Source: Peptococcaceae bacterium BRH_c23 (GTDB lineage Bacteria; Bacillota_B; Desulfitobacteriia; Desulfitobacteriales; Desulfitobacteriaceae). Taken from it: 50,646 bases of DNA. Location: assembly GCA_000961805.1 (NCBI GenBank), contig LADV01000033.1, forward strand, positions 1 through 50,646, read 5' to 3'. A program made the translations under genes and the position numbers. The notes under the pieces are model-generated. The model made no database searches and was not told where the DNA came from. It saw nothing but the letters and a program-made list of their open reading frames with translations. This document shows positions 3,254 to 34,716 of the stretch, in pieces. Numbering within the stretch: the first letter of the stretch is position 1; every line of letters starts with the position of its first letter.

Positions 3254-4600
3254 TCAATCCCCTCGAAATTTTATCCCGTACTTCTTAGCTTTCCTAGCTA
3301 TTGTTGAATGATCCATGCCCAAGGCTTCTGCCGAGCTGCGTGTCGAACTGTAAACCTGAGCGGCTTTATGGATTAGTTCTTGTTCTAAAAGTTCTCGCGC
3401 TTTTTTCAGGTCCATTAAACCGCTTACCAGCACGCGACTTTCCTGGTCACTCTGCAGGTCAAAATAATCACTCAGAACTTCGTCGCCCAGCTTAATAACA
3501 TCACAGGGGGAAGATACCACGAGACGCTCAACAACGTTTTCCAACTCCCGGACATTACCCGGCCAGTCATATGAGGTTTCGAAATAGCGTATTACTTCAG
3601 GCAGGATTTTCTTCTCGATATGATACTTTTCGTTATACTTCTGGAGAAACGTTCTGACTAGGCCGGCTATGTCCCTTTTCCGTTCCCGCAGAGGAGGAAT
3701 GTGAATAGGCACCACATTTAACCGGTAAAACAAGTCCTCGCGGAAGGTGCCTAGTTTAATCATAGCCTTAAGGTCTCGATTAGTAGCAGCAATAAATCTG
3801 ATGTCCGCCTTTACCTGCTTAACCCCGCCGATGCGCATAAAACGCAGCTCTTGGATCACTCTAAGCATCTTAACCTGAAGGCTGAGCGGTAAATCTCCGA
3901 TCTCATCCAGCAAAATGGTCCCTTTGTCAGCTACCTCAAGCAGACCCACTTTGCCTTCCCGGCCAGCCCCAGTGAAAGCTCCCTTTTCATAACCAAAGAG
4001 TTCAGACTCTAATAAATTTTCCGGTATAGCCCCGCAGTTTATGGCCACCATAGGTCCTTCATGGCGTTGACTGACTCGGTGGATCAATTTAGCCACAACC
4101 TCTTTGCCCGTTCCTGATTCACCGGAAATCAAGACGGTGGAATCAACCATAGCGACCCTTTGGGCTAATTCTGATACTCTCCTCATTGCAGGACTGTCCC
4201 AAACTACATCCTCCACGTCCAACAACCGTGTGCGAAGTTCTAATAGTTCTGAATGATACCTTGTCACCAAATCTTTGAGCGCCAATACTTCGGTTGCATC
4301 GCGGAAAATGGCCACGACACCCGTCATTATTCCTTGCTCAAAAATAGGTGTGATATTAGCGACAATATCAATGCCCACCGAAACTATATGTGCGTGGTCA
4401 TCAACCACAGGCTTTCCTGTCCGTAACACATCGAGAATGTGGGAATTAGGCTCAATCTCAGAGACCTTTCGTCCCAACACCTTTTCAACTTGAACCCCAA
4501 AACTACGGGTGTAAGCTGGGTTGGCATAGAGTATGGTCGAATCCAGAGCAACTATAATGACACCGTCGTGAATTGAGTCCAAGACGCTATTCGTTAGCAT
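3254..4600 (-). CDS. Sigma-54-dependent transcriptional activator with one PAS domain
   Basis: This 448-residue enhancer-binding protein has an N-terminal PAS domain (about 1-115; SIHDGVIIVALDSTILYANP), an AAA+ ATPase domain (about 135-365) and a C-terminal Fis-type helix-turn-helix (STRSSAEALGMDHSTIARKA). The AAA+ part has Walker A GESGTGKE, the sigma-54 contact loop GAFTGA, Walker B ILLDEIGDLP and the R-finger region LFYRLNVVPIHIPPLRER. It should open sigma-54 promoters on sensing a small ligand through PAS. It sits just downstream of the molybdopterin oxidoreductase operon, whose control is a likely but unproven role. It has its own terminator. Confidence 0.92.
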   Translation of the reverse strand: MLTNSVLDSIHDGVIIVALDSTILYANPAYTRSFGVQVEKVLGRKVSEIEPNSHILDVLRTGKPVVDDHAHIVSVGIDIVANITPIFEQGIMTGVVAIFRDATEVLALKDLVTRYHSELLELRTRLLDVEDVVWDSPAMRRVSELAQRVAMVDSTVLISGESGTGKEVVAKLIHRVSQRHEGPMVAINCGAIPENLLESELFGYEKGAFTGAGREGKVGLLEVADKGTILLDEIGDLPLSLQVKMLRVIQELRFMRIGGVKQVKADIRFIAATNRDLKAMIKLGTFREDLFYRLNVVPIHIPPLRERKRDIAGLVRTFLQKYNEKYHIEKKILPEVIRYFETSYDWPGNVRELENVVERLVVSSPCDVIKLGDEVLSDYFDLQSDQESRVLVSGLMDLKKARELLEQELIHKAAQVYSSTRSSAEALGMDHSTIARKAKKYGIKFRGD

Positions 4601-9052: not shown

Positions 9053-10393
9053 CTATAGGCTTCTCTTCAGGAATTGACCCGTTGCCTCAGAGACCATTTG
9101 TCCATCTTTGACAACGACCTTTCCTCCTTTGATCGTCATTATTGGCCAACCACGAAGTTCTTGACCATCATAGAGGCTAAAATCAGCTCTGGAACCTAAA
9201 TCTTCATGGCGCACTGTTTTAACTAAATCAAGATCCACCACAACCAAATCAGCGTCACTCCCTGGTGTAATGGTCCCTTTGCGCGGATAAAGTCCGTAGA
9301 TCTCGGCTGGGTTTTTGCTCATAACTTCTACTAAGCGAATGAGATCAAAACCACGATTGTTGACTCCATAATTTAACATTACCGGCAGACTCGTTCCTAC
9401 TGCCGGATATCCGGGCATAGCTCCCCAAATTCCTTTTTCCGCACCCTTTAGATCTAAGGTCAAGGTAACATTGTCAGTACCCACAGTATCCAACAAGCCG
9501 CTAGCCAGACCCTGCCAGAGAGCATCGACACTTTCAGTATCCCGGAAAGGCGGAATCATATGGGCCACTAACCCCAAGGGACTATATTTATCGATGGAGA
9601 GGTAAGGGGAGGTAGTTTCCGCAAAAAGTTTGGGGTAGCGTGGTTTCAGTTCCGCCAAAGCCTTAACACTCTCAGCCGTGGAAACATGAACAATATACAT
9701 TCGACTTCCTGCCAGATCATTGAGATAAGCGGCCCTCCGTACTGCATCTTCTTCGGCAGCATTAGGATGTGTATCTGCCCAATCTGCAAGAGTTTCGCTA
9801 CCTCTGGCCCGCACTTTTTCAGTAGCAATCCTGATCAGATGAGGATTTTCAGCATGAACACAAACAATTGCCTTGTCTCCTAAAGCTGCCACAATTTCTA
9901 GGGTTTGGAGCATGAAGCCGTCATCAACGTCTGGTATGAGTCCGGGGATTCCTGACATGTACATCTTGAACGAGGTAATTCCGAGTTCGTTAGCATAGGT
10001 AGAGATTTCACTTTGCTGTTCGGGAGTCATAATAGCTAAGTGAAAAAAGACATCAGCAACAGCTTTTGCATTGGCGAGATCAATGACATCTTTAAAATAG
10101 GACATATATGGATTCGGACCGCCCATAAAAGCGCCTACTGTCGTAATACCGCCCATTAAAGCGGATGCTGTTTCCTTTTCCATCTCTTCTGCCAAATCAC
10201 CGAAAATACCTAAATGAATATGAGGGTCAATAAGACCAGGTAAAACAAACTTTCCTGCCACTGAGATTTCTTCGTCCCCGCTTAAACCTTGGCCAATCGC
10301 TACAATTTTACCATTCTCCATTGCCACATCGGCTTCAAAGATACCCTGTCCTGGAATCACCAAACGACCGTTTTTTAATACTAATTTACTCAT
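9053..10393 (-). CDS. Hydantoinase/dihydroorotase-type cyclic amidohydrolase
   Basis: This 446-residue amidohydrolase has the binuclear zinc pattern of D-hydantoinase, dihydropyrimidinase, allantoinase and dihydroorotase: GLIDPHIHLG (first two His), SFKMYMSG (Lys expected to be carbamylated), CVHAENP (His), YIVHVSTAES (His) and the late GTDNVTL (Asp). The C-terminal SDADLVVVDLD and GWPIMTIKGGKVVVKDGQ are typical of hydantoinases. It should hydrolyse a cyclic amide or imide in the cytoplasm. It lies between a 2-oxoacid oxidoreductase and a molybdoenzyme, so ring opening in a catabolic path is more likely than pyrimidine synthesis. The ATG follows AAGGGGG. An enamidase role is also conceivable. 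Confidence 0.85.
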   Translation of the reverse strand: MSKLVLKNGRLVIPGQGIFEADVAMENGKIVAIGQGLSGDEEISVAGKFVLPGLIDPHIHLGIFGDLAEEMEKETASALMGGITTVGAFMGGPNPYMSYFKDVIDLANAKAVADVFFHLAIMTPEQQSEISTYANELGITSFKMYMSGIPGLIPDVDDGFMLQTLEIVAALGDKAIVCVHAENPHLIRIATEKVRARGSETLADWADTHPNAAEEDAVRRAAYLNDLAGSRMYIVHVSTAESVKALAELKPRYPKLFAETTSPYLSIDKYSPLGLVAHMIPPFRDTESVDALWQGLASGLLDTVGTDNVTLTLDLKGAEKGIWGAMPGYPAVGTSLPVMLNYGVNNRGFDLIRLVEVMSKNPAEIYGLYPRKGTITPGSDADLVVVDLDLVKTVRHEDLGSRADFSLYDGQELRGWPIMTIKGGKVVVKDGQMVSEATGQFLKRSL

Positions 10394-10535: not shown

Positions 10536-10551
10536 CGCAATCAAGTCGCCA
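10536..10551 (-). promoter_or_regulatory. Possible sigma-54 promoter overlapping the end of the beta-subunit gene
   Basis: The minus strand reads TGGCGACTTGATTGCG: GG and GC are ten bases apart as required, and TTGC is intact. It overlaps the beta-subunit stop and would drive the amidohydrolase and molybdoenzyme. Because it overlaps coding sequence and has no GGTA-N8-TACC site nearby, chance is a real alternative. Confidence 0.35.
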
Positions 10552-11416
10552 GTTTTCTTTGTAAACGTTGCCACTCCAGATCAACCTCTCGTTGAATTTC
10601 CTCTATCTGAGCTTGGTTAAGATGTCTATACCTTTTTTGCAGCGCTAAATATTGTGAAACAGGTGTCCCTTTAGAACCGTAGTTCAGTGTATAACGCTCT
10701 CCATTTTCTATTTCATACAATGGAAAAACCCCTGATTCTACTGCCAAACGGGATACTTTCGGCCCAGCATTATCTGCTAAACCCCAACCATCCAGGCAGG
10801 GGGCCAAAACTAAAATAAACCGTAACCCCTTCATTTCTTTGGCCTTGGCAACCTTACGCGCTAGATCTTCGGGATAACCCGTGGTTGCTGTAGCCATATA
10901 AGGAATACGGTGGGCAGCCATAATCTCCGCCAGATTCTTCTTGGGTGTTTGTTTACCCGCAGGAGTAGACGCTGTGTAAGCCAGGTAAGGGGTTGCCGAG
11001 CTTTTTTGTGATCCTGTATTCATATACCCTTCATTATCCAAACAAACGTAGATAAAATCTTCATTGCGCTCGGCTGCAGAGGATAAAGACTGGAAGCCAA
11101 TATCATAGGTTCCGCCATCACCGGCCATAACGACAACTTTTGTATGGTCGTTCCCTTTTGCTTTCAGCGCTCGGGCAATACCCGTCGCCGAGGCAGCACT
11201 AGCCTCTAGAGTTGTTTGATAAACTGGCATGCGCATTGAGCTTAAGGGTTGCGGACCGGAAATAATGGCGATACAAGAAGGCGGCACTACTCCGATGGTA
11301 TCCGGTCCTAAAGTGTTCACAATATAACGCATAGCCAAGGCTTCACTACAACCAGGGCAGGCAGCATGACCGGAATTAAAGACTTTTTCTTCATTAATTT
11401 GATAACCCATCTTCAA
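10541..11416 (-). CDS. 2-oxoacid:ferredoxin oxidoreductase, beta (TPP-binding) subunit
   Basis: A 291-residue beta subunit of the pyruvate/2-oxoacid:ferredoxin oxidoreductase family. It has the CPGC cluster motif near the N-terminus and the thiamine diphosphate motif from VVMAGDGGTYDIGF to CLDNEGYMNTG. A further cysteine in LAPCLDGWG probably completes the 4Fe-4S site. With the alpha, gamma and delta genes just upstream it makes a full CoA-dependent oxidative decarboxylase working on ferredoxin. TTG at 11416 is six bases after AGGGG; ATG at 11410 is the alternative. The acid used (pyruvate, aryl-pyruvate or another) cannot be fixed by eye. Confidence 0.9.
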   Translation of the reverse strand: MKMGYQINEEKVFNSGHAACPGCSEALAMRYIVNTLGPDTIGVVPPSCIAIISGPQPLSSMRMPVYQTTLEASAASATGIARALKAKGNDHTKVVVMAGDGGTYDIGFQSLSSAAERNEDFIYVCLDNEGYMNTGSQKSSATPYLAYTASTPAGKQTPKKNLAEIMAAHRIPYMATATTGYPEDLARKVAKAKEMKGLRFILVLAPCLDGWGLADNAGPKVSRLAVESGVFPLYEIENGERYTLNYGSKGTPVSQYLALQKRYRHLNQAQIEEIQREVDLEWQRLQRKLAT

Positions 11417-11419
11417 TCA

Positions 11420-12577
11420 TCACCCCTTCCAGACAGAACTTGTCACGGGTTGTGTACTCATGGCTTCCCGGACTAGTGCTGCGATATTTGTCGGAGAGAT
11501 ATTCGTCCCGCCTACACCTGTCAGATATCCGTGTATTGCAGGTCCACGCTCCAAACCATATAAGGCTGCTTTAAGTTCTTGATGAAGGAAGCCACCTGTC
11601 CCAGGGGCAAAATTGCGGTCCAAAACCATGACCTTAGGTACACCCCTTAAGGCCTGGCGCACTGCCTCGAAGGGAAACGGCCTGAACAATTTAACCTTGA
11701 TTAAACCGACTGGTACGCCTTCTTTGCGTAGATTATCCACGGCATCCCGAGCAGTACCTACCATACTTCCCATGGTGGCAATTACTAATTCAGCGCCCTC
11801 GCAGCAATACTCCTCAATAATTCCATAACCGCGACCCGTAAGCTCCCGCCACTCTAGATCTGCTTCTTGAGCCACATTAATAACACTTTCCATCGCCAAA
11901 CCCAGATCTCGGCGATGACGATAGAACATCTCTTGATTGACGGTATTTCCCCAAGATTCCCCGATCTCTGGATCTAAACGATGGAGGGGATTAAAATCAG
12001 GTAAGTATTGATCCACCATCTCTTGAGCCGGAACCTCAACAATATCTAAGGCGTGTGAAACATAAAATGCTTCATGCATAACCATAGCCGGGAGCATGAC
12101 CTTTTCGGCAACCCGATAGGCTTGCAGGACAGTATCCAAAGACTCTTGACCATGTTCACAGTAATATTGAATCCAACCCGTGTCTCGTTGTGCTAAACTG
12201 TCTGTTTGATCAGGCCAGAAACCCCAGGGCGAACCAATGGTCCGGTTGACATTAAACATCACGATGGGAGCCCTAGCTCCGGAGGCATAATGTAACATTT
12301 CGTGCATTAACATTAAGCCCTGAGAGGCAGTCGCCGTAAACACTCTAACCCCTGTCAGAGAGGCTGTGATACAAGCTGCCATGGCGGAATGCTCTGATTC
12401 GGCTGTCATTAATTCAACAACCATTTCACCAGCGGCTTGAAACTCCGAAATTTTTTCCACAATTGGCGTTTGGGGTGTAATCGGGTAAATGGGAACTACT
12501 TTTGGTTGAGCCAGTCTTACACCATAGGCAACAGCATGGTTACCATTCACTAGAATGCGGTTATTGTTTTTGTTCAT
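11420..12577 (-). CDS. 2-oxoacid:ferredoxin oxidoreductase, alpha subunit
   Basis: A 385-residue alpha subunit. The N-terminus VPIYPITPQTPIVEKISEF is the conserved pyrimidine-binding part of PorA-type subunits. TATASQGLMLMHEMLHYASG and GSPWGFWPDQTDSLAQRDTG are family signatures, and the C-terminal transketolase-like domain contains KVMVLDRNFAPGTGGFLHQE. I choose ATG 12577, which follows GGAGGAAACAGGACG and overlaps the upstream stop (ATGA); the longer open frame upstream lacks such support. The beta gene follows after only a few bases, so the subunits are translated together. Confidence 0.9.
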   Translation of the reverse strand: MNKNNNRILVNGNHAVAYGVRLAQPKVVPIYPITPQTPIVEKISEFQAAGEMVVELMTAESEHSAMAACITASLTGVRVFTATASQGLMLMHEMLHYASGARAPIVMFNVNRTIGSPWGFWPDQTDSLAQRDTGWIQYYCEHGQESLDTVLQAYRVAEKVMLPAMVMHEAFYVSHALDIVEVPAQEMVDQYLPDFNPLHRLDPEIGESWGNTVNQEMFYRHRRDLGLAMESVINVAQEADLEWRELTGRGYGIIEEYCCEGAELVIATMGSMVGTARDAVDNLRKEGVPVGLIKVKLFRPFPFEAVRQALRGVPKVMVLDRNFAPGTGGFLHQELKAALYGLERGPAIHGYLTGVGGTNISPTNIAALVREAMSTQPVTSSVWKG

Positions 12578-14253
12578 CGTCCTGTTTCCTCCTTCAATAC
12601 AACCGCTCCTCGTGGACATTCCTGAACACAACTACCACAGCCTTTACAAAATTGATCTAAAATGCGGTAATGTTCTGTCAAGGAAGAGTCTTTAACCACT
12701 GCCATGTCTGGACAAAAGTAAAAACAATTGTCGCACTCCACACAATTACCACAACTGAAACAGCGCTCTGATTGGGTCTGAGTTTGTTGGGGACTAAAAC
12801 CTATTTTAAGCTCTGCAAAGTTTTTGAGCCTTTCTTCAACCGCAACTGTGCCCTTCTCTTCCCGATTCTGCTCCGGGAAATAAAACATATTAATTTCCTG
12901 GTAAGCAACTACGTCTTGTGACGTTTGCGTATCTTTTGAACTAATCCCCTTGGAATACGGTTTCTTTAAATACTTATCAATACTTTGGGCAGCTTTTTTC
13001 CCTTGCCCAATTGCTGTGGAGACAAAGCGCTCTGCAGGAGTCACATCTCCGCCCGCAAAAATTCCAGGTCGATTAGTCGCTAAATTAGCATCGACCCTGA
13101 CTAAAGATTGTCCGACATTGATTACGCTATCCCAACCGGTCAATTCGGCATCTTGTCCAACCGCCAAGATAACATTCGTTGCAGAAACGCTAAATTCAGT
13201 ACCAGAGAGTGGAATTGGCCTAAGTACTCCTGCAGGAGAATTCTCATCTAACGTAACCCTGATACAGTGCAAACTAAGGGTTTCAAAACTTATGCCTACA
13301 TTCTGAACCATAACACCCGCTAAAATCTCGACTCCTTCTTCCAAAGACTCAGTCAGCTCATCAGGCTGAGCGGGCAGTGACTCTCTAGCCTCTAAGGCTA
13401 GTACCTTAACCTGACTACCTAAACGCCGGGCTGTACCAGCGACATCTAAGGCCACACTACCTCCCCCGATGACAACCACGTCTTGCCCTAATGGAGGAGC
13501 TTCTCCACGGTTAACCTTTTCCAGAAAATCTAAGCCGTTAAACACCCTGAGGTTATCTACTGAAAATTGGGGGAGTGTTTTAGAACTCTGAGCCCCTAAA
13601 GCCAGGAAAACGGCTGAATATTCCTTTTCTAACCCGCTTAAATCACTGGCCTTAACCGAATGATTCAACTTTACTTCTATACCTAGTGCTTCTAAGCGTC
13701 TTAATTCCCCATCCCAGGTTTCCTTGGCTAATCGATAGCTAGGAATCCCATAGCGCAAAACACCGCCGAGTTCGGGACGAGTCTCAAAGATGGTAACCTT
13801 ATAACCAAGTCTTTTGAGCTGATAAGCACAGGATAGTCCTGCTGGTCCACCACCGATCACTGCTATCTTCTGGTCTAGTGCTACCGTTGGCTGGGGTAAG
13901 GCCCACCCCTCACTCAAGGCTAAATCGCCAACAAATTGTTCAAGGGCATTGACCGCGACTGCACCATCATATTCACGACGATTACAGGCACCCTCGCAGG
14001 GATGATGACAGATTCGCCCAGTTACCGCGGGAAAAGGATTGTTGTCCACAAGAGAAGACCAAGCCTCTCGATAGTGTTGCTTCCTGGCTAACATGATCCA
14101 AGTAGGTATCTCCCCGTCAACTGGACAGGCACAGTGGCAAGGTGCTAAACGCTTTTGATAAAAGGGGATAGCACTACGCCAAGTCCCTGTATTCAAAATA
14201 TCCGTCCAGCCGGTCGTCCAAATAGAAGGTACTTCCTTAAAGGTCTCTTTCAT
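12574..14253 (-). CDS. GltD-like NAD(P)H oxidoreductase fused to a two-cluster ferredoxin (delta) module
   Basis: A 559-residue fusion. Residues ~35-110 carry the cysteine-rich GltD/NfnB-type Fe-S domain (CHCACPVDGEIP, CHHPCEGACNRR). An FAD Rossmann motif follows (AVIGGGPAGLSCAYQLKRLG) and an NAD(P)H-binding motif after that (VVVIGGGSVALDVAGTARRL). The end (~490-550) is a ferredoxin resembling PorD: CFSCGNCVECDNCFYFCP and CKGCGSCVQECPRG. It sits in the delta position between gamma and alpha, so the complex may deliver electrons to NAD(P) directly or bifurcate them. It starts with an ATGA overlap on the gamma stop. Confidence 0.88.
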   Translation of the reverse strand: MKETFKEVPSIWTTGWTDILNTGTWRSAIPFYQKRLAPCHCACPVDGEIPTWIMLARKQHYREAWSSLVDNNPFPAVTGRICHHPCEGACNRREYDGAVAVNALEQFVGDLALSEGWALPQPTVALDQKIAVIGGGPAGLSCAYQLKRLGYKVTIFETRPELGGVLRYGIPSYRLAKETWDGELRRLEALGIEVKLNHSVKASDLSGLEKEYSAVFLALGAQSSKTLPQFSVDNLRVFNGLDFLEKVNRGEAPPLGQDVVVIGGGSVALDVAGTARRLGSQVKVLALEARESLPAQPDELTESLEEGVEILAGVMVQNVGISFETLSLHCIRVTLDENSPAGVLRPIPLSGTEFSVSATNVILAVGQDAELTGWDSVINVGQSLVRVDANLATNRPGIFAGGDVTPAERFVSTAIGQGKKAAQSIDKYLKKPYSKGISSKDTQTSQDVVAYQEINMFYFPEQNREEKGTVAVEERLKNFAELKIGFSPQQTQTQSERCFSCGNCVECDNCFYFCPDMAVVKDSSLTEHYRILDQFCKGCGSCVQECPRGAVVLKEETGR

Positions 14254-14795
14254 TTAACACCCCCCTTTCTAGTTAATCTATACCCATCCTCACAGCATTT
14301 AAGGTTTTGATCCACTTTAACCGGGCTCATCTCTGAGACAACTTCACATAAAACCTCAAGGGTGGGTTGACCTAGCAAACCAGCAACCGCCCCAACCAAG
14401 GTTGTATTAACGATCCGTCCTAGCTTATTATCGCTAGCTATAGCCATGGCATCTATGGTAACAATCCGAAACCTTCCTAAACCAGTAAAATGTTCGGGCG
14501 GTTGAGCTGAATTGATGATGACAAAAGTATTCTCAGTCGCACCTCTTAAGAGAACATCATTAAGTAGACTGGGATCGAAGCAGACTATAACATCTGGATT
14601 TTCAATGTTACAGCGTAAGCGGATAGGTTGGTCATCCACTCTAATGAAAGAACTGACCGCTGTACCCCGTCTAGCTCCTCCGTAAGTGGCATAAGCTTGG
14701 ACATATTTGCCTTCCCGGAAAAATACATTCGCTAAAATATCCCCTGCCATTTGCGCCCCTTGACCGCCACGTCCCTGAATAATAAATTGCAGCAA
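14250..14795 (-). CDS. 2-oxoacid:ferredoxin oxidoreductase, gamma subunit
   Basis: A 181-residue gamma subunit with the diagnostic N-terminus FIIQGRGGQGAQMAGDILAN, then YGGARRGTAVSSFIRVDDQPI and RIVNTTLVGAVAGLLG. It is the first gene of the operon. The start is TTG 14795, eight bases after GGAGG; no ATG is well placed. The stop TGA lies within the ATGA start of the fused oxidoreductase. A sigma-54 promoter about 40 bases upstream and GGTA-N8-TACC sites further up suggest substrate-induced expression. Confidence 0.9.
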   Translation of the reverse strand: MLQFIIQGRGGQGAQMAGDILANVFFREGKYVQAYATYGGARRGTAVSSFIRVDDQPIRLRCNIENPDVIVCFDPSLLNDVLLRGATENTFVIINSAQPPEHFTGLGRFRIVTIDAMAIASDNKLGRIVNTTLVGAVAGLLGQPTLEVLCEVVSEMSPVKVDQNLKCCEDGYRLTRKGGVK

Positions 14796-14836: not shown

Positions 14837-14852
14837 TGCAAGTTAACGTCCA
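14837..14852 (-). promoter_or_regulatory. Sigma-54 (-24/-12) promoter of the 2-oxoacid oxidoreductase operon
   Basis: The minus strand reads TGGACGTTAACTTGCA, with GG and GC separated by ten bases and an intact TTGCA at -12. Transcription would start near 14826, about 30 bases before the TTG start at 14795. A GGTA-N8-TACC dyad lies 119 bp upstream. Confidence 0.65.
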
Positions 14853-14969
14853 ACTTTTTCATTTCTGGAGGATTTATCCTTAAAGGACCTAATCTTGAGT
14901 GTGGACGGTAGTATTTACAGCCTGAACAGTAAGGTTTATTCTAAATATTCTGATTTTTATTTTAAACTT

Positions 14970-14985
14970 GGTACAATAATATACC
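14970..14985. promoter_or_regulatory. GGTA-N8-TACC activator site 1 (2-oxoacid oxidoreductase operon)
   Basis: GGTACAATAATATACC. This 4-8-4 dyad recurs at 15048, 15135 and 19371. It begins 119 bp upstream of the GG of the sigma-54 promoter, a normal enhancer distance. Confidence 0.6.
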
Positions 14986-15047
14986 GCGCCCCTTCAGTTA
15001 ACAACTGAATTAAGACTATTTCGCTTCTAAAATAAGCCTTTATAGCT

Positions 15048-15063
15048 GGTACAACAATTTACC
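15048..15063. promoter_or_regulatory. GGTA-N8-TACC activator site 2
   Basis: GGTACAACAATTTACC, 78 bp further upstream than site 1 and with the same 4-8-4 shape. It supports binding of an oligomeric enhancer-binding protein at several sites. Confidence 0.55.
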
Positions 15064-15117
15064 AGGGATTATTTTCTACTTCACCCTTACTAAGGACTGT
15101 TTTGTCATTAAAACACC

Positions 15118-15167
15118 TTAGTGATTTGTTTTTTGGTATGTATATGTACCAAAAAACAAATCACTAA
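15118..15167. repeat. 21-bp perfect inverted repeat containing a third GGTA-N8-TACC site
   Basis: Arms 15118-15138 and 15147-15167 are perfect complements around an 8-base loop. The centre (15135-15150) reads GGTATGTATATGTACC, so the arms enclose a copy of the activator dyad. It may act as an activator site, as a second terminator for the molybdenum hydroxylase operon ending at 15275, or as both. The A/T runs inside the arms are not placed like a normal U-tract. Confidence 0.6.
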
Positions 15168-15189
15168 TTAATTCCAAGGACTTCATAAT

Positions 15190-15227
15190 TAGCGTGGAGA
15201 CACATTTTTTACATGGTTTCCACGCTA
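15190..15227 (-). terminator. Hairpin after the molybdenum hydroxylase operon
   Basis: AGCGTGGA (15191-15198) pairs with TCCACGCT (15219-15226), plus one flanking T-A pair, about 50 bases after the large-subunit stop. The T-tract is weak, so termination efficiency is uncertain. Confidence 0.5.
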
Positions 15228-15274
15228 TAAAACTTGTTAAAACTCCCCGACGGTGCTTTTCGGAATTACATCTT

Positions 15275-17551
15275 CTACTGATCTTTATTCTGCAGTGCAG
15301 TCAACACTCTTTCTGGAGTCATCGGCAACTCTTTGAATCTGATTCCAATGGCATCATAAACTGCATTGGCAATAGCAGCAGCCGTAGCCACTAACCCAGA
15401 TTCCCCTACACTTTTAGCTCCAAAAGGTCCAGTTTCACTAGCTGCCTGGACTAAAATTGTTTCAATTTGCGGCATGTCTACTGAGGTCAGAATTTTATAA
15501 TCCGACAAATTAGAATTTAAGGGCTTACCTGTTCCCAAATCAATACGGTAATCCTCTGTTAAGGCGTAACCGATTCCCTGCTGAACTGCTCCTTGAATTT
15601 GGCCTTCTACTGAGGCCGGGTTTACAGCCGTTCCAACGTCGTGAGCAGCAACCACTCTTATGACCTCAATGATTCCAGTTTCGGTATCAACTTCGACTTC
15701 GGCAAATTGGGCAGCGTAAACGGGTGGATTACCTGGTGGTTCCTCACTTACTGCTCCGATAAATTGATGACCATGGCTACCAAAGTGAGCAGCATGGGAT
15801 ATTTCTGCGACGCTCAGTGATTTGGAGGAATCGTCTCGCGCCCAAACTCTGCCCTCCTTCACCTCAAGTCCTTCAACAGGGATATCTAGAAGTTCTGCAG
15901 CCATTACCAATAACTGTTCTTTGGCCATTGTAGCGGCCTTTTTTACAGCGTTTCCTCCAGAATAAATCTGGCGACTGGCATGACTACCAATGTCAAATCC
16001 ATTGACATCTGTATCCGACATTTTGCTAATCATGACCTCGTTGAAGGGAATCCCAAGCTCTTCGGCGGCAATCTGGGATAAGGATGTAGCACTACCCGTC
16101 CCAACATCAGAATTACTGAAATTCAAATTGGCACTACCATCTTCATTGATTTTAATAATAGCGGCAGAGGTTTCATGGAGCATCGGTCTAGCCCCGCTCA
16201 CATGCATCATGTAACCCATCCCGACTCCACGCTTTTTAACCCCTTGACTTATTCGTCCATTATTTCTTTTTTCTGTCCACCCGATTGCTTTAGCACCACT
16301 TGCAATAGACTCCTCTAAGCCGCAGCTTTCAATTGCCCAACCACTCCACATCCAAACCTCTCCGGCACAGGGGTGATTCTTGAGTCTCAGCTCAAGAGGA
16401 TCAATACCCAATTTTTCTGCGATATCGTCCATCTGTGATTCGACGGCAAACACCACCTGAGGGTTACCATAACCGCGAAAAGCACCACATTGTGTAGCGT
16501 TAGTATAGACAGAATAGTTATCTACTTTTATGTTGGGAGACTTATACATAGCTAAAAACCAACCGGCCACAGGTCCAGCCAAGGAAGGGGTATGTGTGGC
16601 ATAAGCACCGCCATCAATATAAGAGGTAAACTGGCGAGCCGTAAATGTACCATCTTTTTTCATACCGGTTTTGAGAGTCATCGTCATAGGATGTCTGGAT
16701 TCTGTCGCTAAAAAGGCTTCTTCCCTCGAATATTTGAGCATAACCGGTTGCCCAACCTTCATAGCCAATAAAGCGGAGATTGGTTCATTAACCACCCCTA
16801 GACGACTTCCAAATGCTCCTCCCACCGACGGCTTTATGATGCGAACCTGTCCAATCTTTAAGCCTAAGGCATGGGCTGTAATTCTCCGAACCAAATGAGG
16901 CATTTGTGTCGATGTCCAAATGGTGACACGACCATCCATGTCTGGTGCCGCCATGGAAACTCCACAGGGTTCCATGCTTACTTGGTTGACTTTGGGCACC
17001 TGATAAGTGTCTTCAAAGACATAATCTGCTTCAGCAAAGCCTGCCTCAACATCTCCAATTACGACTGGTGTATGCCCATAAGTATTATTTTCGGCGTCGT
17101 GTAAACGTGGCGCTCCTTCCGCCAAAGCTTGTTCCATACTTACAACAGCAGGCAACACCTCATATTCAACTTCGATAAGCTCTAAGGCTTGAGTTGCCGT
17201 CTCTTCATCAACAGCTGCCACTGCAGCAATTCCGTCTCCGACATAGAGAGGAGTATTTGTGAGAATGTATTGATCCTCAACTAGGATTGCCCCTGGTGAT
17301 GGAGGAAACCCAGCACTATTCCACAAAATTTTCGGCGTATCCTCATAAGTTAAAACAAGCTTAACCCCTGGCAATTGCTTGGCCTTTGAGGTATCAATCC
17401 TGATAACCTTAGCGTGAGCGTAAGGACTACGCAGCACTTTACCAACCAACATATGGGGCAACACCATATCCCCGGTGTATAAAGCACTCCCACTGACTTT
17501 TTCCCGCGCGTCTACCCGGGGTAATGAATGACCAACAACAGAATAACTCAT
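15275..17551 (-). CDS. Molybdenum hydroxylase (xanthine dehydrogenase family) large subunit
   Basis: A 758-residue molybdopterin-binding subunit of the xanthine dehydrogenase/CO dehydrogenase family, which hydroxylates carbon next to nitrogen in N-heterocycles or oxidises aldehydes with water as oxygen source. Visible parts are the N-terminal VDAREKVSGSALYTGDM, the cofactor motifs SVGGAFGSRLG and QCGAFRGYGNPQVVFAVES, and the C-terminal GPFGAKSVGESGLVATAAA with the expected catalytic Glu. The ATG follows AAAGGAGGG. It is the last gene of an FAD, 2Fe-2S, Mo operon. The substrate cannot be assigned; xanthine, nicotinate-like rings and others are all possible. Confidence 0.9.
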   Translation of the reverse strand: MSYSVVGHSLPRVDAREKVSGSALYTGDMVLPHMLVGKVLRSPYAHAKVIRIDTSKAKQLPGVKLVLTYEDTPKILWNSAGFPPSPGAILVEDQYILTNTPLYVGDGIAAVAAVDEETATQALELIEVEYEVLPAVVSMEQALAEGAPRLHDAENNTYGHTPVVIGDVEAGFAEADYVFEDTYQVPKVNQVSMEPCGVSMAAPDMDGRVTIWTSTQMPHLVRRITAHALGLKIGQVRIIKPSVGGAFGSRLGVVNEPISALLAMKVGQPVMLKYSREEAFLATESRHPMTMTLKTGMKKDGTFTARQFTSYIDGGAYATHTPSLAGPVAGWFLAMYKSPNIKVDNYSVYTNATQCGAFRGYGNPQVVFAVESQMDDIAEKLGIDPLELRLKNHPCAGEVWMWSGWAIESCGLEESIASGAKAIGWTEKRNNGRISQGVKKRGVGMGYMMHVSGARPMLHETSAAIIKINEDGSANLNFSNSDVGTGSATSLSQIAAEELGIPFNEVMISKMSDTDVNGFDIGSHASRQIYSGGNAVKKAATMAKEQLLVMAAELLDIPVEGLEVKEGRVWARDDSSKSLSVAEISHAAHFGSHGHQFIGAVSEEPPGNPPVYAAQFAEVEVDTETGIIEVIRVVAAHDVGTAVNPASVEGQIQGAVQQGIGYALTEDYRIDLGTGKPLNSNLSDYKILTSVDMPQIETILVQAASETGPFGAKSVGESGLVATAAAIANAVYDAIGIRFKELPMTPERVLTALQNKDQ

Positions 17552-17570
17552 AATTGCTTCCCTCCTTTCC

Positions 17571-18032
17571 CTATCGACGACTTACATCCATAATCGCTTC
17601 GACGACCTTAACATACCCTGTACAGCGACAAAGGTTTCCTGTGATTCCTTCTCGTACTTCTTTTTCTGTCGGATGAGGATTGCTATCTAATAATGCTTTA
17701 GCTGTCATAACAATTCCCGGGGTGCAATAACCACATTGTATTGCCCCGTGGGCAACTAGTGCTTCCTGAATAGGATCTAATTCCATAATCCCACCTATGC
17801 CTTCAATCGTGGAAATTTGCTTACCCACTGCATCGACCGCTAAGATAAGACATGAGTTGACTGGCTTACCATCCATTAATACTGTACAAGCACCACATTC
17901 CCCGCTGTCACAGCCTTTTTTTGTACCAGTCAGGGCCAAGTCCTCTCTAAGCACATCCAATAAGGTCTTTTTTATCGGAACATTAACTAGATATGTTTCA
18001 CCATTAATTTGCAAACTTATCGGTGTCATCAT
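17571..18032 (-). CDS. Molybdenum hydroxylase 2Fe-2S subunit
   Basis: About 153 residues with both 2Fe-2S sites of the family: the plant-ferredoxin type CDSGECGACTVL and the second pair CGYCTPG and CRCTGY. This subunit links the molybdenum site to the FAD subunit. The start is one of two adjacent ATGs (18032 or 18029) after GGGGGGAG; 18032 gives an ATGA overlap with the upstream FAD gene. The protein is cytoplasmic, with no signal peptide. Confidence 0.92.
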   Translation of the reverse strand: MMTPISLQINGETYLVNVPIKKTLLDVLREDLALTGTKKGCDSGECGACTVLMDGKPVNSCLILAVDAVGKQISTIEGIGGIMELDPIQEALVAHGAIQCGYCTPGIVMTAKALLDSNPHPTEKEVREGITGNLCRCTGYVKVVEAIMDVSRR

Positions 18033-18892
18033 AGTTCTCCCCCCCAAGCTTCAACAAGTGCTCGCCGTGTTAGAACACCCACCATTTGCTTACGGTAACT
18101 GGCGGTGCTCCGAACATCGTCAATTGGGTTAACTGCCTGCTTAGCCAATTCCGCTGCCTGCTCGAAAGCGCTCAGGGTTGCCAAAGAATCGGTCAAACTA
18201 TCCTCCGCATCCTTGATACGTAACGGAGTCGAAGCAACAGCACCAACAGCAATCCTGGCTCTGATTTGCTTTGTTCCCGGCTGAGGCGTTAAGAGCACTG
18301 CTACATTAACTAAGGCAATTTCATGACTTTTGCGCTTTCCGTGTTTATAAAACACACCCTTACTGTTCAGCGGTGGAAGATCCATTTCTATGGCAGTAAG
18401 TAGTTCTCCTTGTTGTAACACCGTTTGACTAGGTCCAACATAAAACTCCTGCACAGGAACCTTGCGTGACCCACTAGGTCCTATAATCAGCAAGCGTGCC
18501 TCATACATTAAAAGAACTAAGGCAACATCTGCCGCAGGAGATGCATTACATAAATTACCACCAATCGTTGCCAGATTACGCACTTGAGGAGTACCCAAAC
18601 TCCTTGCTGCCTCAACCAATACAGGGAAGTGAATACGAACCAACGGGTTCTCGATTAGGGAGCTTATTTGTGTTAAGGCACCTATGGTGATGGTTAGGCC
18701 CTCATAGTTGATTCCCTTAAGTTCTGTCAAGCCTTTAATATTGACGATGCCCCTCCAGTTTATAGGGCCTTTCTTCATTTTAACTAACAGATCAGTTCCC
18801 CCTGCTAAAGGTCTGACTTGATCTCCCAAATTAGCTAGTATAGAAACTGCCTCTAACAGGTTTCCAGGTTCCCAGTAGTTTAAATCCGACAA
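18029..18892 (-). CDS. Molybdenum hydroxylase FAD-binding subunit
   Basis: About 287 residues of the CoxM/XdhB type. The FAD pyrophosphate loops are visible as RPLAGGTDLLVKMKKG and LATIGGNLCNASPAADV. It passes electrons from the 2Fe-2S subunit to NAD or another acceptor. The start is probably TTG 18892, eight bases after GGGGG; a GTG at 18901 lies directly on that Shine-Dalgarno. It ends in an ATGA overlap with the 2Fe-2S gene. It is the first well-supported gene of the operon. Confidence 0.9.
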   Translation of the reverse strand: MSDLNYWEPGNLLEAVSILANLGDQVRPLAGGTDLLVKMKKGPINWRGIVNIKGLTELKGINYEGLTITIGALTQISSLIENPLVRIHFPVLVEAARSLGTPQVRNLATIGGNLCNASPAADVALVLLMYEARLLIIGPSGSRKVPVQEFYVGPSQTVLQQGELLTAIEMDLPPLNSKGVFYKHGKRKSHEIALVNVAVLLTPQPGTKQIRARIAVGAVASTPLRIKDAEDSLTDSLATLSAFEQAAELAKQAVNPIDDVRSTASYRKQMVGVLTRRALVEAWGGEL

Positions 18893-18971
18893 AAGCTTCA
18901 CCCCCTAGAATATTTCAGGTTAAATTACTTGAATGAATTCCCTTTAGCAACCTAAATTTTACGCACTTTTA

Positions 18972-19196
18972 CTAAGTAATAGTTTTAATATTCTGATTAT
19001 TGATCAGTAAAAAATAAGGAAACTGCGCAATAGCATTTTCCAAGCACCCTGTCTCTTTTAGTGGGAGGACTACCTCCCTTTCCCAGCACCGAAACACCAA
19101 GAAACACCCAAAGGTATCAATTAAAACCGTGAACTTTTTGTAAATATCTCTGACAGACTTTCGCCTTATCACCACCTTGCTTCTCAACTTAGTCAT
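18972..19196 (-). CDS. Small hypothetical protein in the leader of the molybdenum hydroxylase operon
   Basis: A 74-residue open frame, basic at the N-terminus (MTKLRSKVVIRRKSVRD), with three cysteines or fewer and no recognised domain. It starts about 30 bases after the predicted sigma-54 transcription start, so it would be the first frame on the operon messenger. The ribosome binding site is weak (GGGTAGAGATCT). It may be a leader peptide or a chance frame in an otherwise empty 590-base spacer. Confidence 0.25.
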   Translation of the reverse strand: MTKLRSKVVIRRKSVRDIYKKFTVLIDTFGCFLVFRCWEREVVLPLKETGCLENAIAQFPYFLLINNQNIKTIT

Positions 19197-19236
19197 AGAT
19201 CTCTACCCAAATGGCGAGTCACATGACTGTATTTTA

Positions 19237-19253
19237 ATGCAAGATGAATTCCT
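19237..19253 (-). promoter_or_regulatory. Sigma-54 (-24/-12) promoter of the molybdenum hydroxylase operon
   Basis: The minus strand reads AGGAATTCATCTTGCAT. GG and GC are ten bases apart and the -12 element TTGCAT equals that of the 2-oxoacid oxidoreductase promoter. A GGTA-N8-TACC dyad begins 119 bp upstream, the same distance as there. The leader to the FAD gene is long, about 330 bases. Confidence 0.55.
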
Positions 19254-19370
19254 AATTTCGTTAAGAACCTCACTATTAGCCTGAACAGCTTATCTAGCGT
19301 ACTATACAGTATAATTTAGGCTTTTAACAGTTCTTTGAACCAGACTGGATCATGATTCAAAAATAGCCTT

Positions 19371-19386
19371 GGTACATTACAATACC
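19371..19386. promoter_or_regulatory. GGTA-N8-TACC activator site (molybdenum hydroxylase operon)
   Basis: GGTACATTACAATACC, the same 4-8-4 dyad found three times upstream of the 2-oxoacid oxidoreductase operon. A degenerate relative with one good half (ACAATTTACC) lies about 75 bp further up at 19446-19461, and a lone TACC half-site in AATGTACC near 19475-19482. Confidence 0.6.
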
Positions 19387-19491
19387 ACTTTTTCCTGACA
19401 TTTCCTGAAACACACGCTATAAGCCGACTATTATTTCAATCTCTTCGATACACAATTTACCACTCTTTCCAAGGAATGTACCACCTTTTAA

Positions 19492-21225
19492 CTAATCCGC
19501 TGACATTAATTTATATTTTTGAATTTTACGTAGCACTGTGGGGTGGGAAACACCTAGAAACTTGGCTGCCTGCCTTATCGTTGGATAGGCCTGCAAAGTT
19601 TTACGCAAGAGTTCTATTTCCAACATTTCAATGGCTTTTTCGAAAGGCAGAGGTTCATTAACCTGAATTACGAGAGCCTGTTGTTCAGGTACGCTGTTCA
19701 CATTAAATGGCAGATGTTTAAGAGTCAAAACCTCATCCTCATTCATAATCAGCATTCGTTCAATCAAATTTTCTAATTCGCGAACATTACCTGGCCAAGG
19801 ATGACGTTCAAAAGCCAACAAAATTTCCGGCTCAAATCTAATATTGCTAGAATATTTTCGGTTAAAGCCTTCTAAAAAGTGGATAGCCAAAGGGACAATG
19901 TCATCTGTACGCTCCCTCAGGGGAGGGAGGTGAATGGGTACGACATTTAAGCGATAAAAAAGATCCGCCCGAAAACTATGTTGGGCTACCATTTCTTCTA
20001 AGTTTTTATTCGTTGCGGTCACTACCCGCACATTAAATTTAATGGGTTTGGCAGCACCGACTCTAAGTACCTCCTGTTGTTGCAATACTCGCAATAATTT
20101 AACCTGCATTGTCATCGGCATTTCCGCGATCTCATCAAGAAGTAGAGTCCCGCCCTCACAAAGTTCGAAAATACCTTTTTTCCCTCCACATCGGGCACCT
20201 GTAAAAGCTCCCTCTTCATAGCCAAAGAGTTCTGATTCGAGCAAGTTTTCCGGAATAGCTCCACAATTGATTTGTAAAAAGGGCCCATTGACACGAGGAC
20301 TTAACTCATGAATTAAGGTGGCCACAATTTCCTTTCCTACCCCGGACTCCCCAGTAATTAAGACGTGTGAATTTACATGAGCCACACGAACTATCAGTTT
20401 AAAAACCCTCTGCATACTCGCACTTCGGAATATGAATTCCTCATGACGCCACAGCTTTGTTCTCAACTCCTTAATTTCGTGGGCATAGCGGATATTCTGT
20501 TGCTCCGTAGTTTCTATCCGTTCTCGCAAAAGATTCAGTTCAGTCATATCACGTATATTACAGACTACACGTAGAACTTCCCCTTTTTCATTAATAACGG
20601 GGCTGCCAGTAATTAAAATTTCTTTACCGGTTTTTATTTTTTGTTTGATAGTCACCGGTTTTTTTTGGCTCAGAACAAGTAAGGCGACCGCTTGGGAAAC
20701 TGTACCGTCATCTTGAAGCTCTCTGACATTACGGCCAACTCCATTGTCTTGCTTGGACAAACCTGTAATTCTTTCATAACTAGTATTGACTCTTAATAGA
20801 GTACCTTCTCCATCAATAATCCCAACGCCATCGTAAAAGGATTCGAGAATAGCCTCAAATTCTTTATTTAACTCTTTAACGTACCCTAACTCCATAGCTA
20901 AAGATTCGAGGTCAGAAACATCTTGAAATACTGCAATTGCGCCAACTACCCTGTCGCCTTCAATAATCGGTGTACGATTGGTGACCATAATTAGGCCGTT
21001 TTGTTCAAACTTTTGCCCAAACGAGGGTTTACCACTATAGAGTACCGACGTAAGTCCAGCAGGTAATAAATCACTGAGTTTCTGTCCAATGACTTTACCA
21101 GCAGCGACTCCCAGCATGCGCTCCGCCTGGCGATTAAAGATTGTAACTCGCTCTTCGGCATCAATAGCTACAATTCCATTATGCACAGCATTAAGGACCT
21201 CGTTCAATTTATTAAACCATGACAA
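19492..21225 (-). CDS. Sigma-54-dependent activator with two PAS domains
   Basis: About 577 residues. Two PAS domains (about 1-110 and 125-235; VHNGIVAIDAEERVTIFNRQ and FYDGVGIIDGEGTLLRVNTS) and a short coiled coil precede the AAA+ domain (GESGVGKE, GAFTGA, LLLDEIAEMP). A TyrR-like helix-turn-helix ends the protein (IRQAAKFLGVSHPTVLRKI). The likely start is TTG 21225, nine bases after GGAGG. It lies just upstream of the molybdenum hydroxylase operon, next to the GGTA-N8-TACC sites, and is the best candidate to bind them and to control the 2-oxoacid oxidoreductase operon as well. The ligand is unknown. Confidence 0.92.
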   Translation of the reverse strand: MSWFNKLNEVLNAVHNGIVAIDAEERVTIFNRQAERMLGVAAGKVIGQKLSDLLPAGLTSVLYSGKPSFGQKFEQNGLIMVTNRTPIIEGDRVVGAIAVFQDVSDLESLAMELGYVKELNKEFEAILESFYDGVGIIDGEGTLLRVNTSYERITGLSKQDNGVGRNVRELQDDGTVSQAVALLVLSQKKPVTIKQKIKTGKEILITGSPVINEKGEVLRVVCNIRDMTELNLLRERIETTEQQNIRYAHEIKELRTKLWRHEEFIFRSASMQRVFKLIVRVAHVNSHVLITGESGVGKEIVATLIHELSPRVNGPFLQINCGAIPENLLESELFGYEEGAFTGARCGGKKGIFELCEGGTLLLDEIAEMPMTMQVKLLRVLQQQEVLRVGAAKPIKFNVRVVTATNKNLEEMVAQHSFRADLFYRLNVVPIHLPPLRERTDDIVPLAIHFLEGFNRKYSSNIRFEPEILLAFERHPWPGNVRELENLIERMLIMNEDEVLTLKHLPFNVNSVPEQQALVIQVNEPLPFEKAIEMLEIELLRKTLQAYPTIRQAAKFLGVSHPTVLRKIQKYKLMSAD

Positions 21226-29245: not shown

Positions 29246-29263
29246 TTGCAAATATTGTGCCAA
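29246..29263 (-). promoter_or_regulatory. Sigma-54 promoter of the MttB operon
   Basis: The minus strand reads TTGGCACAATATTTGCAA, an almost perfect TGGCAC-N5-TTGCA. Transcription would start near 29235, about 40 bases before the first corrinoid gene. The same 18 bases occur at 34699-34716. Confidence 0.88.
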
Positions 29264-31735: not shown

Positions 31736-33568
31736 CTATTTAGGAATTTTGATATCAAGCCCCAGATCTTTTACCTTTCTGTAGAAAGTAGATCTACTTA
31801 TGCCTAGGCTATCAGCCGCCTTTTCTTTAGCTTGACCGCTACTACCGAACCTTTTCAATGTAGCTACAATAGCATTTTTCTCTAACTCAGCTAAGGTAGG
31901 TTGAACATCCCCTGTTGATAGACTGGCATTTTGTTCATAATAGTCATTTACCCGAGAAGACAAGCAAGTACAGTCAATAACATTTTTCGTGACAATATTG
32001 ACTGCATACTCAACTGCATTTTCCAGTTCCCTTACATTCCCCAACCAAGGGTAAACAAGCATTTTTTTCTGAACTTCTTGTGTAAAGCTGGTAATTTGTT
32101 TACCAAGGATCAGGTTATACTTATCTAAAAAATGATAGAGCAGAAGCATCAAATCTTCTTTCCGTTCACGCAACGGCGGAATATAAAACGGAATAACACT
32201 TAACCTATAGAAGAGGTCACTTCTAAATAACTTTTCACTGATCATTTCTTCGAGATTGCGATTTGTCGCAGCGATAATCCGGACATCGACCCACACTGGT
32301 TTTACTCCACCGATCCGATCAATTCTGACTTCTTGCAACACTCGTAACAACTTCACCTGAAGATGCATCGGCATGTCACCAATTTCATCGAGAAAGATTG
32401 TCCCTCCATCCGCTTGTTCGAATTTTCCCGGTTTACCACCGCGACTAGCTCCCGTAAAGGCTCCTTCTTCATACCCGAAAAGTTCACTCTCCAGGAGCGC
32501 CTCCGGAATAGCTCCGCAATTTATGGCGATAAATGGGCCGTTTTTTCGATGGCTTTCTTCGTGAATAGCTCGGGCAAATAACTCTTTACCGGTTCCACTC
32601 TCGCCTGTAATTAAGATTGTTGAGTCTGTTGCGGCGACAAGTTGCATTTTCTGCTTAAGCATGGTCATCGCCTTACTGGTCCCTAATATTCCGTCAAGAG
32701 TATATTTGCGATCTTCTCGAATCAATCGTCCTGCTAATTTTCGCAGCTCACGAATGCTTCGGAAGGAAATTACTAAACCGATAATTTCCTGATCTGTTTT
32801 GATGGGTGTTATGGTACTGATAAAGAGGCAGAGTTCTTCCTTGTTTTTATACTTGATTTCTTGTTCGGCATATTGTTGTCCAAAGCTCAGAACTTTTGGA
32901 GCAGAAAACTCTGGAAAAATATCATTGATGTGTTGCCCACAAGCTTGCTGAGTAGAAATACTCAATAGCTTTTCGGCAGACTTGTTAACATGGGTTATAA
33001 AACCTGCATGATCAATCGCTACGAGTCCTTCGACAATAGAGTTAATGACTGCGCTAAATTGGTTGGCCATTAATGAGAGGCGACCATGCATTTGATTTTC
33101 ACCAATCTTACTACTTGTTAAAGCTGCTATTTTCATCAAAAAGTCTTGCAACTTGTCTCGATTAGCAAGCAGCTCATGCTTTTCCACTTCGTCAAAAGCA
33201 AAAATTGAAATTGTGCCAATTATATTGCCGTTCAAGATGATTGGAGATAGTATTGCGGCTTTGAGTTTGCAGATTATCTTCTGCTGACAATCTTTACAAA
33301 TGCTGTGTTTAAGAGGTTCGTCATCTAAAACAAAATAACCGCCGTTGTCAACGATATACTTTGTGATCGATCCTTTTCCATAAACAATCCCAATCTCACT
33401 CTTGTATTTTCCTGTCCCGGCAATGACTTTCAAGTTGTCATCAATAATAGCAACCTCAAATTCTATCACTGCTGAAATAACATCTGCTATTTGTTGGACA
33501 TAGGATTGGTTTGATTCTAATTCTGACGCAAACAACGGTGAATACAAGTTCTCACGCATAGCTTTCAT
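31736..33568 (-). CDS. Sigma-54-dependent activator, copy 1 (sensor + PAS + AAA+)
   Basis: A 610-residue enhancer-binding protein. Residues ~15-160 are a sensor region with a cysteine group [10 protein letters not shown] (C-x2-C-x5-C) inside a GAF-like fold. A PAS domain follows (about 170-280; [20 protein letters not shown]). Then come the AAA+ domain ([24 protein letters not shown]) and a Fis-type helix-turn-helix ([20 protein letters not shown]). It lies upstream of the transporter and two genes away from the MttB operon, both with sigma-54 promoters. The copy at 35104 is nearly the same from the PAS domain onward. The start ATG follows GGGTGAGGTT. Confidence 0.93.
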
Positions 33569-34698: not shown

Positions 34699-34716
34699 TT
34701 GCAAATATTGTGCCAA
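34699..34716 (-). promoter_or_regulatory. Sigma-54 promoter, duplicate copy
   Basis: TTGGCACAATATTTGCAA on the minus strand, identical to 29246-29263. Downstream lie the deletion scar and the MtgA-like gene. Confidence 0.85.

Follow-up and report, generated by a model that had tools for sequence, protein, structure and literature searches.

Sigma-54-dependent regulons of the Clostridiales have been reconstructed in a survey that describes 39 activator groups together with their targets (Nie et al. 2019, PMC6615313). According to the available text of that survey, the activators have multiple upstream sites, most of them 100-250 bp from the sigma-54 box, and their regulons are small, usually beside the activator gene and sometimes controlled in trans. 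We analyzed a locus that resembles these systems in the Desulfosporosinus-like Peptococcaceae bacterium BRH_c23 (GenBank assembly GCA_000961805.1, contig LADV01000033.1, positions 1 to 50,646 of the forward strand; this whole stretch of 50,646 nucleotides is referred to as the window). Two intergenic gaps in the window, one before a molybdenum (Mo) hydroxylase operon and one before a 2-oxoacid oxidoreductase operon, contain copies of the sequence GGTA-N8-TACC upstream of a -24/-12 box. Based on the sequence comparisons below, it is likely that the two gaps are sigma-54 promoters of one regulon, carrying dyads for the activator encoded at 19492-21225 and an array of direct repeats with a 21-bp period.

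When the locus was compared with the described systems, no target operon in Table 1 of PMC6615313 matched these two by gene names. Fifteen of the groups there have TGT-N10-12-ACA sites, and it is from the sites of these groups, the only ones compared, that GGTA-N8-TACC differs; a repeat array between site and promoter is not mentioned in the available text of that paper. The nearest NCBIfam match of the candidate activator is PrdR (NF041552), but this match reached 457.7 bits over residues 122-578 against a cut-off of 795, and the PrdR site, as given in the available part of PMC6615313, is of the TGT/ACA type, unlike the one found here. The targets listed for the DioR purine regulon in the same source (such as ygeW-ygfK-ssnA-ygeY, pbuX and xdhC) differ from the two operons described here. 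IHF often assists DNA looping at sigma-54 promoters, as stated in the available text of PMC7057263. When the literature was searched by title and abstract opening, nothing was found that describes this regulon or sigma-54 promoters with a 21-bp array.

The GGTA-N8-TACC motif is palindromic, and all features of the locus are on the - strand, where the activator gene (19492-21225) is followed by the FAD, Fe-S and Mo hydroxylase genes (18901 to 15275) and the oxidoreductase operon (14795 to 9053). The activator and the candidate promoter elements are as follows.

19492..21225, - strand: candidate activator, a PAS-PAS-AAA+(GAFTGA)-HTH_50 sigma-54 enhancer-binding protein (from its domains; TTG start assigned from orthologues)
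19447..19461, - strand: candidate degenerate distal enhancer site of the Mo-hydroxylase promoter, 15 bp, GGTAAATTGTGTATC (from the sequence)
19371..19386, - strand: candidate proximal enhancer site of the Mo-hydroxylase promoter, GGTATTGTAATGTACC (motif match, orthologue conservation)
19238..19253, - strand: putative -24/-12 box of the Mo-hydroxylase operon, AGGAATTCATCTTGCA (the GGAA-N6-TTGCA form is kept in 9 of the 10 promoters of this type)
15135..15150, - strand: candidate third enhancer site of the oxidoreductase promoter, 299 bp from the GG (conserved in orthologous promoters)
15119..15166, - strand: terminator-like hairpin of 20 pairs that encloses the third site (hairpin and terminator scoring)
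15048..15063, - strand: candidate distal enhancer site of the oxidoreductase promoter, GGTAAATTGTTGTACC (motif match, orthologue geometry)
14970..14985, - strand: candidate proximal enhancer site of the oxidoreductase promoter, GGTATATTATTGTACC (motif match, orthologue geometry)
14837..14852, - strand: putative -24/-12 box of the 2-oxoacid oxidoreductase operon, TGGACGTTAACTTGCA (orthologous promoters have a box here)

The initial annotation had placed four copies of the motif at 14970, 15048, 15135 and 19371, and all four are found there. The window has 6 matches in total, compared with 0.34 expected, and none of 100 shuffles reached 6; the two matches outside the gaps (40677 and 48557) are within listed open reading frames. 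The GG of the box is at 14850-14851 and 19251-19252, and the nearer edge of the proximal site is exactly 119 bp from it at both promoters, as had been annotated. Each of the two boxes matches the consensus at 8 of 12 positions, a score that 28 GG-N10-GC windows of the stretch reach or exceed. Because of this weak score and the number of equally good windows, the boxes needed independent support, which the orthologous promoters provide.

Orthologous promoter loci (L numbers) were collected by activator, motif and genome searches; in the activator scan of related loci, 80 were kept, 5 of them at 63-89% identity and 75 at 33-49%. This gave ten promoters of the hydroxylase type (xdh; the window, L001, L002, L108, L004, L126, L127, L129, L130 and L171) and seven of the oxidoreductase type (por; the window, L001, L109, L004, L127, L129 and L170). 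The gene order activator-hydroxylase-oxidoreductase-amidohydrolase is retained in L001 and L004. L002 stops before the hydroxylase genes, and its contig end overlaps the contig end of L109, which has them, by 44 identical bases. Exact GGTA-N8-TACC sites are present in eight of the ten xdh promoters and in all seven por promoters, so that the motif is conserved upstream of homologous operons, a check that the initial annotation had proposed. An exact distal xdh site is found in L002, L108, L004, L126, L129, L130 and L171, and the 27 exact sites give the consensus T-GGTA-AATNNATG-TACC-A.

The GG-N10-GC boxes upstream of both operons are also kept in the orthologues, with conserved dyads ~100-250 bp upstream of them and, at the por promoters, a third site at ~300 bp. 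The box has the form GGAA-N6-TTGCA in 14 of the 17 promoters (5 of 7 for por); the orthologue boxes were located with the pattern GG-N8-TTGC, so that TTGC is present by choice and GGAA is not. Based on this conservation, we have high confidence in the prediction that sigma-54 uses the -24/-12 boxes of both operons.

A set of 73 genomes (G numbers) of the order, which we take to be Desulfitobacteriales, was searched with the motif and, as a control, with the motif read backward. Motif pairs with starts 64-94 bp apart occur 16 times, in 9 of the 73 genomes, whereas the backward control gave one. When the loci were inspected, 14 of the 16 pairs were found upstream of xdh or por orthologues; the other two are in L128, before a sigma-54-like box, and in L132, inside an open reading frame. 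The single motif GGTA-N7-GTACC, counted on both strands of five genomes, gave 20, 34, 5, 31 and 38 matches versus 44, 47, 22, 24 and 26 for the backward control. Lone motifs are therefore not consistently enriched, being below the control in three genomes and slightly above it in two, and only pairs stand out from the control. The genome-wide frequency of the motif, which had been suggested as a check, thus supports the pairs and not the single sites. No sigma-54-like box was noticed at a fitting distance from the lone sites elsewhere in G001 and G002 (L110-L114).

The activator carries an AAA+ sigma-54 domain, a GAFTGA motif and a DNA-binding domain, and its annotated start at 21225 agrees with the N-termini of its orthologues. 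An orthologue that is 73-89% identical is present in 8 of the 73 genomes, and all 8 bear pairs (Fisher p 7e-10, uncorrected for kinship). The helix-turn-helix (HTH) stretch SHPTV(I/L)RK at the C-terminus is shared by the window protein and the seven orthologues compared and is different in the paralogues compared. That pairs track this protein across genomes is consistent with its annotation as the likely binder, and we consider it very likely that the 19492-21225 product binds the GGTA-N8-TACC dyads. The enrichment of pairs (16 versus 1), their conservation in orthologues and their co-occurrence with the activator place the shared motif beyond chance, and also uphold the earlier proposal of a two-operon sigma-54 regulon. 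In G007, the oxidoreductase genes begin 74 bp after the hydroxylase genes with no sites between them, from which it follows that one enhancer may serve both sets of genes.

Two further loci have related arrangements. At L128:9007-9273 (G044), a GGTA dyad pair with 69 bp between starts and a box, TGGTGCTGATTTTGCA, precede an ATC-hydrolase-family gene (PF14196); this locus is a possible third target of the activator. At L164:3355-3438 (G005), two dyads 68 bp apart (GGTAGCGATTTGTACC and GGTACGATATACTACC) are followed by a box (TGGAACGTTTCTTGCG) and by a gene for a cytosine/purine-type permease. From the proximal L164 site to this box the distance is 173 bp, and the G005 activator is 63% identical over residues 114-579.

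The distance between enhancer and box was compared over 15 promoters (14 xdh or por promoters and L128), with the first G of each element taken as the reference point; the weak L127 xdh site, at 148 bp, was excluded from this comparison. Proximal sites are 126-157 bp from the box. The distance is 134 bp at both window promoters and at just two others among the 15, and it is 126 bp at L170 and 136 bp at L171. The equal distance that had been regarded as telling is therefore exact in the window but is no fixed constant, and a conserved 119-bp spacing (nearer edge to GG) is ruled out by the range observed. Distal sites are mostly 202-225 bp from the box (244 bp at L129 xdh), and a third site lies 294-321 bp out in all seven por promoters, with one mismatch in L127 and L129. 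The copy at 15135, which had been listed as an extra one, thus corresponds to a conserved third por site, with the correction that it doubles as part of a terminator-like hairpin. The proximal distances tend to step by about one helical turn (at 10.5 bp, R is 0.67-0.82 with related species counted), and the enhancer-to-array distances, for the array described below, give an R of 0.85 at 10.5 bp. These steps of ~10.5 bp are suggestive, with many of the loci related.

Between enhancer and promoter, both gaps contain an element that the initial annotation had missed, a 63-bp array of three direct repeats.

19269..19331, - strand: array of direct repeats (three units, 21-bp period) whose start is 78 bp before the hydroxylase box (pattern, alignment and model)
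14868..14930, - strand: array of direct repeats (three units, 21-bp period) whose start is 78 bp before the oxidoreductase box, the third unit weak (pattern, alignment and model)

At both promoters, RCYGTY repeats recur with this period from -78 before the box. The pattern ACYGTY-N15-ACYGTH, which was picked post hoc, occurs in the window at the two arrays only (0.06 expected; 1 of 100 shuffles had at least two matches). Thirteen further promoters could be aligned to the array at -69 to -79, some of them weakly, and the pooled lag identity is highest at 21 bp (0.332, with other lags at 0.22-0.30). With the test genome left out of the array model, 13 of the 15 copies beat all 2,735,146 background positions and the other two were beaten by one. 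Models trained on xdh arrays find por arrays and those trained on por find xdh, at a background fraction of at most 1.8e-5. The offsets of the 15 training loci (-69, -77, -78 and -79) were picked by best match, which inflates the training scores. GGTA dyads are centred 39-71 bp before the array, and 48-50 bp before it in 11 of the 15.

The array also occurs beyond the regulon. When the 63-bp model was run over the 73 genomes, it gave matches in 63 of them at E values up to 5, mostly noise; the best match outside the training set (G002, C39, E 0.002) precedes a sigma-54 box by exactly 78 bp, and the gene behind this box encodes an acyl-CoA dehydrogenase. In the loci examined, which contain 182 distinct boxes, the best nine non-training upstream regions scored 2.6-28.7 bits, and the best of 215 downstream controls scored 1.9. 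A box-anchored pattern with its first unit 77-81 bp before the box had 41 matches in 25 of the 73 genomes, compared with 5 for the backward control and 17, in 14 genomes, for a gap-shifted control (66-70 bp). The offset of 77-81 bp was preset in this search and so is not measured by it; the G002 match, found without a box, measures 78 bp. After three training loci were set aside, 19 of 38 matches had a second unit at lag 21 and a third at 42, and no triples were found at any other lag from 8 to 39 or among the 17 matches of the gap-shifted control. The 19 triples come from 8 genomes and ~12 promoter families, with look-alikes counted by eye.

The genes that follow eight arrays were scanned, seven of them behind members of the 19 and one behind the G002 model match. 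They encode four aldehyde ferredoxin oxidoreductases, two enoyl-CoA hydratases, one CoA hydrolase/transferase and one acyl-CoA dehydrogenase. No GGTA-N8-TACC occurs within 110 bp of any of the 19 arrays. In nine of them, the centre of TGCAATTTTGCA is 57-67 bp before the array; two have another TGCA-N4-TGCA (at 48 and 50 bp) and eight have neither exactly, with looser dyads in some of these eight. Since sigma-54 boxes that have other dyads upstream are preceded by the array as well, a common protein probably binds it, and we would assign it, with some confidence, to a protein shared by many promoters. A search with the strict array pattern gave no match in 386 phylum genomes sampled outside the order and a match in 1 of the 12 order members of that sample (G004); within the class, the strict pattern is present in 8 of 73 order members versus 0 of 9 others. 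This absence elsewhere is provisional, because the strict pattern misses the xdh and por arrays.

The TGCAATTTTGCA sequence represents a second dyad class before the array, at L204, L205, L208, L217, L226, L232, L233, L234 and L236, and several of these loci carry a TGCAT...ATGCA dyad further upstream. All three of the TGCAATTTTGCA loci whose next gene was scanned (L204, L205 and L226) precede an aldehyde ferredoxin oxidoreductase gene.

The most economical model for these promoters would be a modular one, in which an activator-specific enhancer, a common phased array and a -24/-12 box are combined. Dimers of the PAS-PAS-AAA+-HTH_50 protein would bind the paired dyads, mostly ~78 bp apart, with a third dyad ~300 bp out at the oxidoreductase operon, and the bound dimers would build an AAA+ oligomer and loop onto sigma-54 RNA polymerase at the -24/-12 box, so that the Mo-hydroxylase and 2-oxoacid-oxidoreductase operons are switched on together. 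The array, whose distance from the box hardly varies and whose helical phase relative to the enhancer is roughly retained, would be bound by a DNA-organising or co-regulatory protein that is common to such promoters and gives the loop its shape. Such a protein could have an IHF-like looping role or be a global regulator of catabolic operons. To our knowledge, Bacillota lack IHF, and we know of little on how the loop is organised at Gram-positive sigma-54 promoters. The proposed role would be analogous to that of IHF, as described in the available text of PMC7057263, in that a DNA-organising factor helps the enhancer-promoter loop, and would differ from it in the three direct repeats with a 21-bp period.

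An uncharacterised activator can thus be given two target operons and a likely binding site, so that both regulator and pathway become open to direct tests. Judging from the shared array, one class of sigma-54 promoters in the order may contain an element additional to enhancer and box. We tentatively propose that Desulfosporosinus and its kin have a modular class of sigma-54 promoters in which activator-specific dyads are combined with a common 63-bp cassette, and one DNA-organising or global metabolic regulator binds this cassette and shapes the loop as IHF does elsewhere, an idea to which we give slightly less than even chances; if true, the modular cassette would be one handle on many catabolic operons.

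Several observations weigh against the regulon as we propose it. The xdh sites of L001 and L127 are degenerate (one mismatch), as is the distal xdh site of the window, and the window's own por box is one of the three boxes, along with those of L127 xdh and L170 por, that are not in the GGAA-N6-TTGCA form. When the phase test of the enhancer-to-array distances is limited to the four distinct distance classes, the simulated p is ~0.08, and related species and paralogous promoters are non-independent. No box adjoins the second-best new match of the array model (G010, E 0.0024). The array is unrecognisable at the xdh promoters of L127 and L129 and at L128 and L164, and it is weak at the L004 and L002 xdh promoters, with a letter count not clearly above shuffles, so that it is not indispensable. 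G034 has a pair and no orthologue of the activator was found there (2.2-Mb assembly, motif contig of 4.1 kb, best relative 44% identical). The activator gene and the motif-bearing operon are separated in G003 and G007, with a 704-aa paralogue next to the operon in G003, and the sigma-54 boxes that neighbour the displaced activator genes (L003 and L163) have no GGTA site. In these two genomes, the activator must therefore act in trans, or another protein binds. That other protein might be a 448-aa paralogue (3254-4600), the G003 704-aa paralogue or an unrelated dimeric protein, and the 19492-21225 product would then regulate something else, which would fit both the displaced genes beside other boxes and the presence of a relative of the 448-aa paralogue next to the activator in L004 and L171. 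However, relatives at E <=1e-80 are present in 44 of 45 family genomes, yet pairs occur only with the 73-89% identical orthologue, plus G034, and in G006 the best match has the HTH type of the 704-aa protein and there is no pair. Binding of the dyads by another regulator is therefore improbable in our judgment.

A separate question is whether the array is a protein site at all, as it might be a spacer with intrinsic bending or have been left by a duplication of promoters, with a geometry that reflects common descent. Some array promoters are clearly related (four of the eight scanned genes encode aldehyde ferredoxin oxidoreductases and two encode look-alike enoyl-CoA hydratases), and a T-rich stretch ends many units. 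Against this, arrays are found before unrelated genes (for acyl-CoA dehydrogenase, enoyl-CoA hydratase, CoA hydrolase/transferase, Mo hydroxylase and oxidoreductase) with different dyads upstream, and RCNRTT-like letters are kept, beyond an A/T phase, so that we regard a spacer or relic as the less likely, though far from negligible, explanation. The motif copies themselves could be read as RNA hairpins or terminators instead of operators, given that the 15135 copy is within the 20-pair hairpin scored as a terminator and that the 15048 copy was scored as one too (a 6-pair stem on the + strand); this is very improbable when L004 keeps the third site without the long hairpin arms and the sites in orthologues keep their three distance ranges from the box. 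That motif and equal distance are coincidental would agree with an unconserved 119-bp equality, boxes that are weak alone and lone motifs without consistent enrichment, but it is contradicted by the conservation, the genome-wide pair enrichment and the co-occurrence with the activator, and we give it almost no weight.

The genes of the two operons were assigned by domain and NCBIfam scans.

18029..18901, - strand: FAD subunit, first gene of the Mo-hydroxylase operon (domain scan)
17571..18047, - strand: 2Fe-2S subunit of the Mo-hydroxylase operon (domain scan)
15275..17551, - strand: molybdopterin subunit, XdhA-like (NF043082, 763.1 bits, cut-off 780)
14250..14795, - strand: 2-oxoacid:acceptor oxidoreductase gamma subunit, first gene of its operon (domain/NCBIfam scan)
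12574..14253, - strand: NAD(P)-binding flavin/Fe-S oxidoreductase of the oxidoreductase operon (domain/NCBIfam scan)
11420..12631, - strand: oxidoreductase alpha subunit (domain/NCBIfam scan)
10541..11416, - strand: oxidoreductase beta subunit (domain/NCBIfam scan)
9053..10393, - strand: dihydropyrimidinase/hydantoinase-like amidohydrolase (matches below curated cut-offs)

The hydroxylase has the same subunit set as the XdhABC xanthine dehydrogenase, with a Mo subunit that scores under the NF043082 cut-off. A MopB-FeS-NrfD reductase comes after the amidohydrolase, and among related clusters, L109 also has a cytosine/purine-type permease and L127 a TRAP transporter. This gene content, together with the permease that follows the G005 dyads (L164), suggests that a nitrogen heterocycle or a related carboxylate is taken up and degraded anaerobically, a substrate that we infer.

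Provided that the box is functional and translation begins with the GTG at 18901, transcripts of the hydroxylase operon would carry an untranslated leader (18902-19225) of ~325 nt. A riboswitch in this leader is not supported, as no Rfam family matches the window at gathering scores. A 12-mer, AATATTCTGATT, is present both in the leader (18987-18998) and just downstream of the oxidoreductase enhancer (14944-14955), and L108 has a similar stretch between its two sites. A second hairpin (15190-15227, TAGCGTGGA...TCCACGCTA) follows the hydroxylase operon and is kept in L001 and not in L004; it perhaps has a role in termination or mRNA stability.

Elsewhere in the window, identical strong sigma-54 boxes, TGGCACAATATTTGCA, are present at 29247-29262 and 34700-34715, before corrinoid/methyltransferase genes. 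The 21-bp array was not seen at these two promoters. Their upstream sequences resemble each other and share the dyad ATCCTATAATAGGAT, at 164 bp in one and 165 bp in the other. They are likely to form a second regulon, perhaps served by the SpoVT_C-type activators encoded at 31736-33568 and/or 35104-36942.

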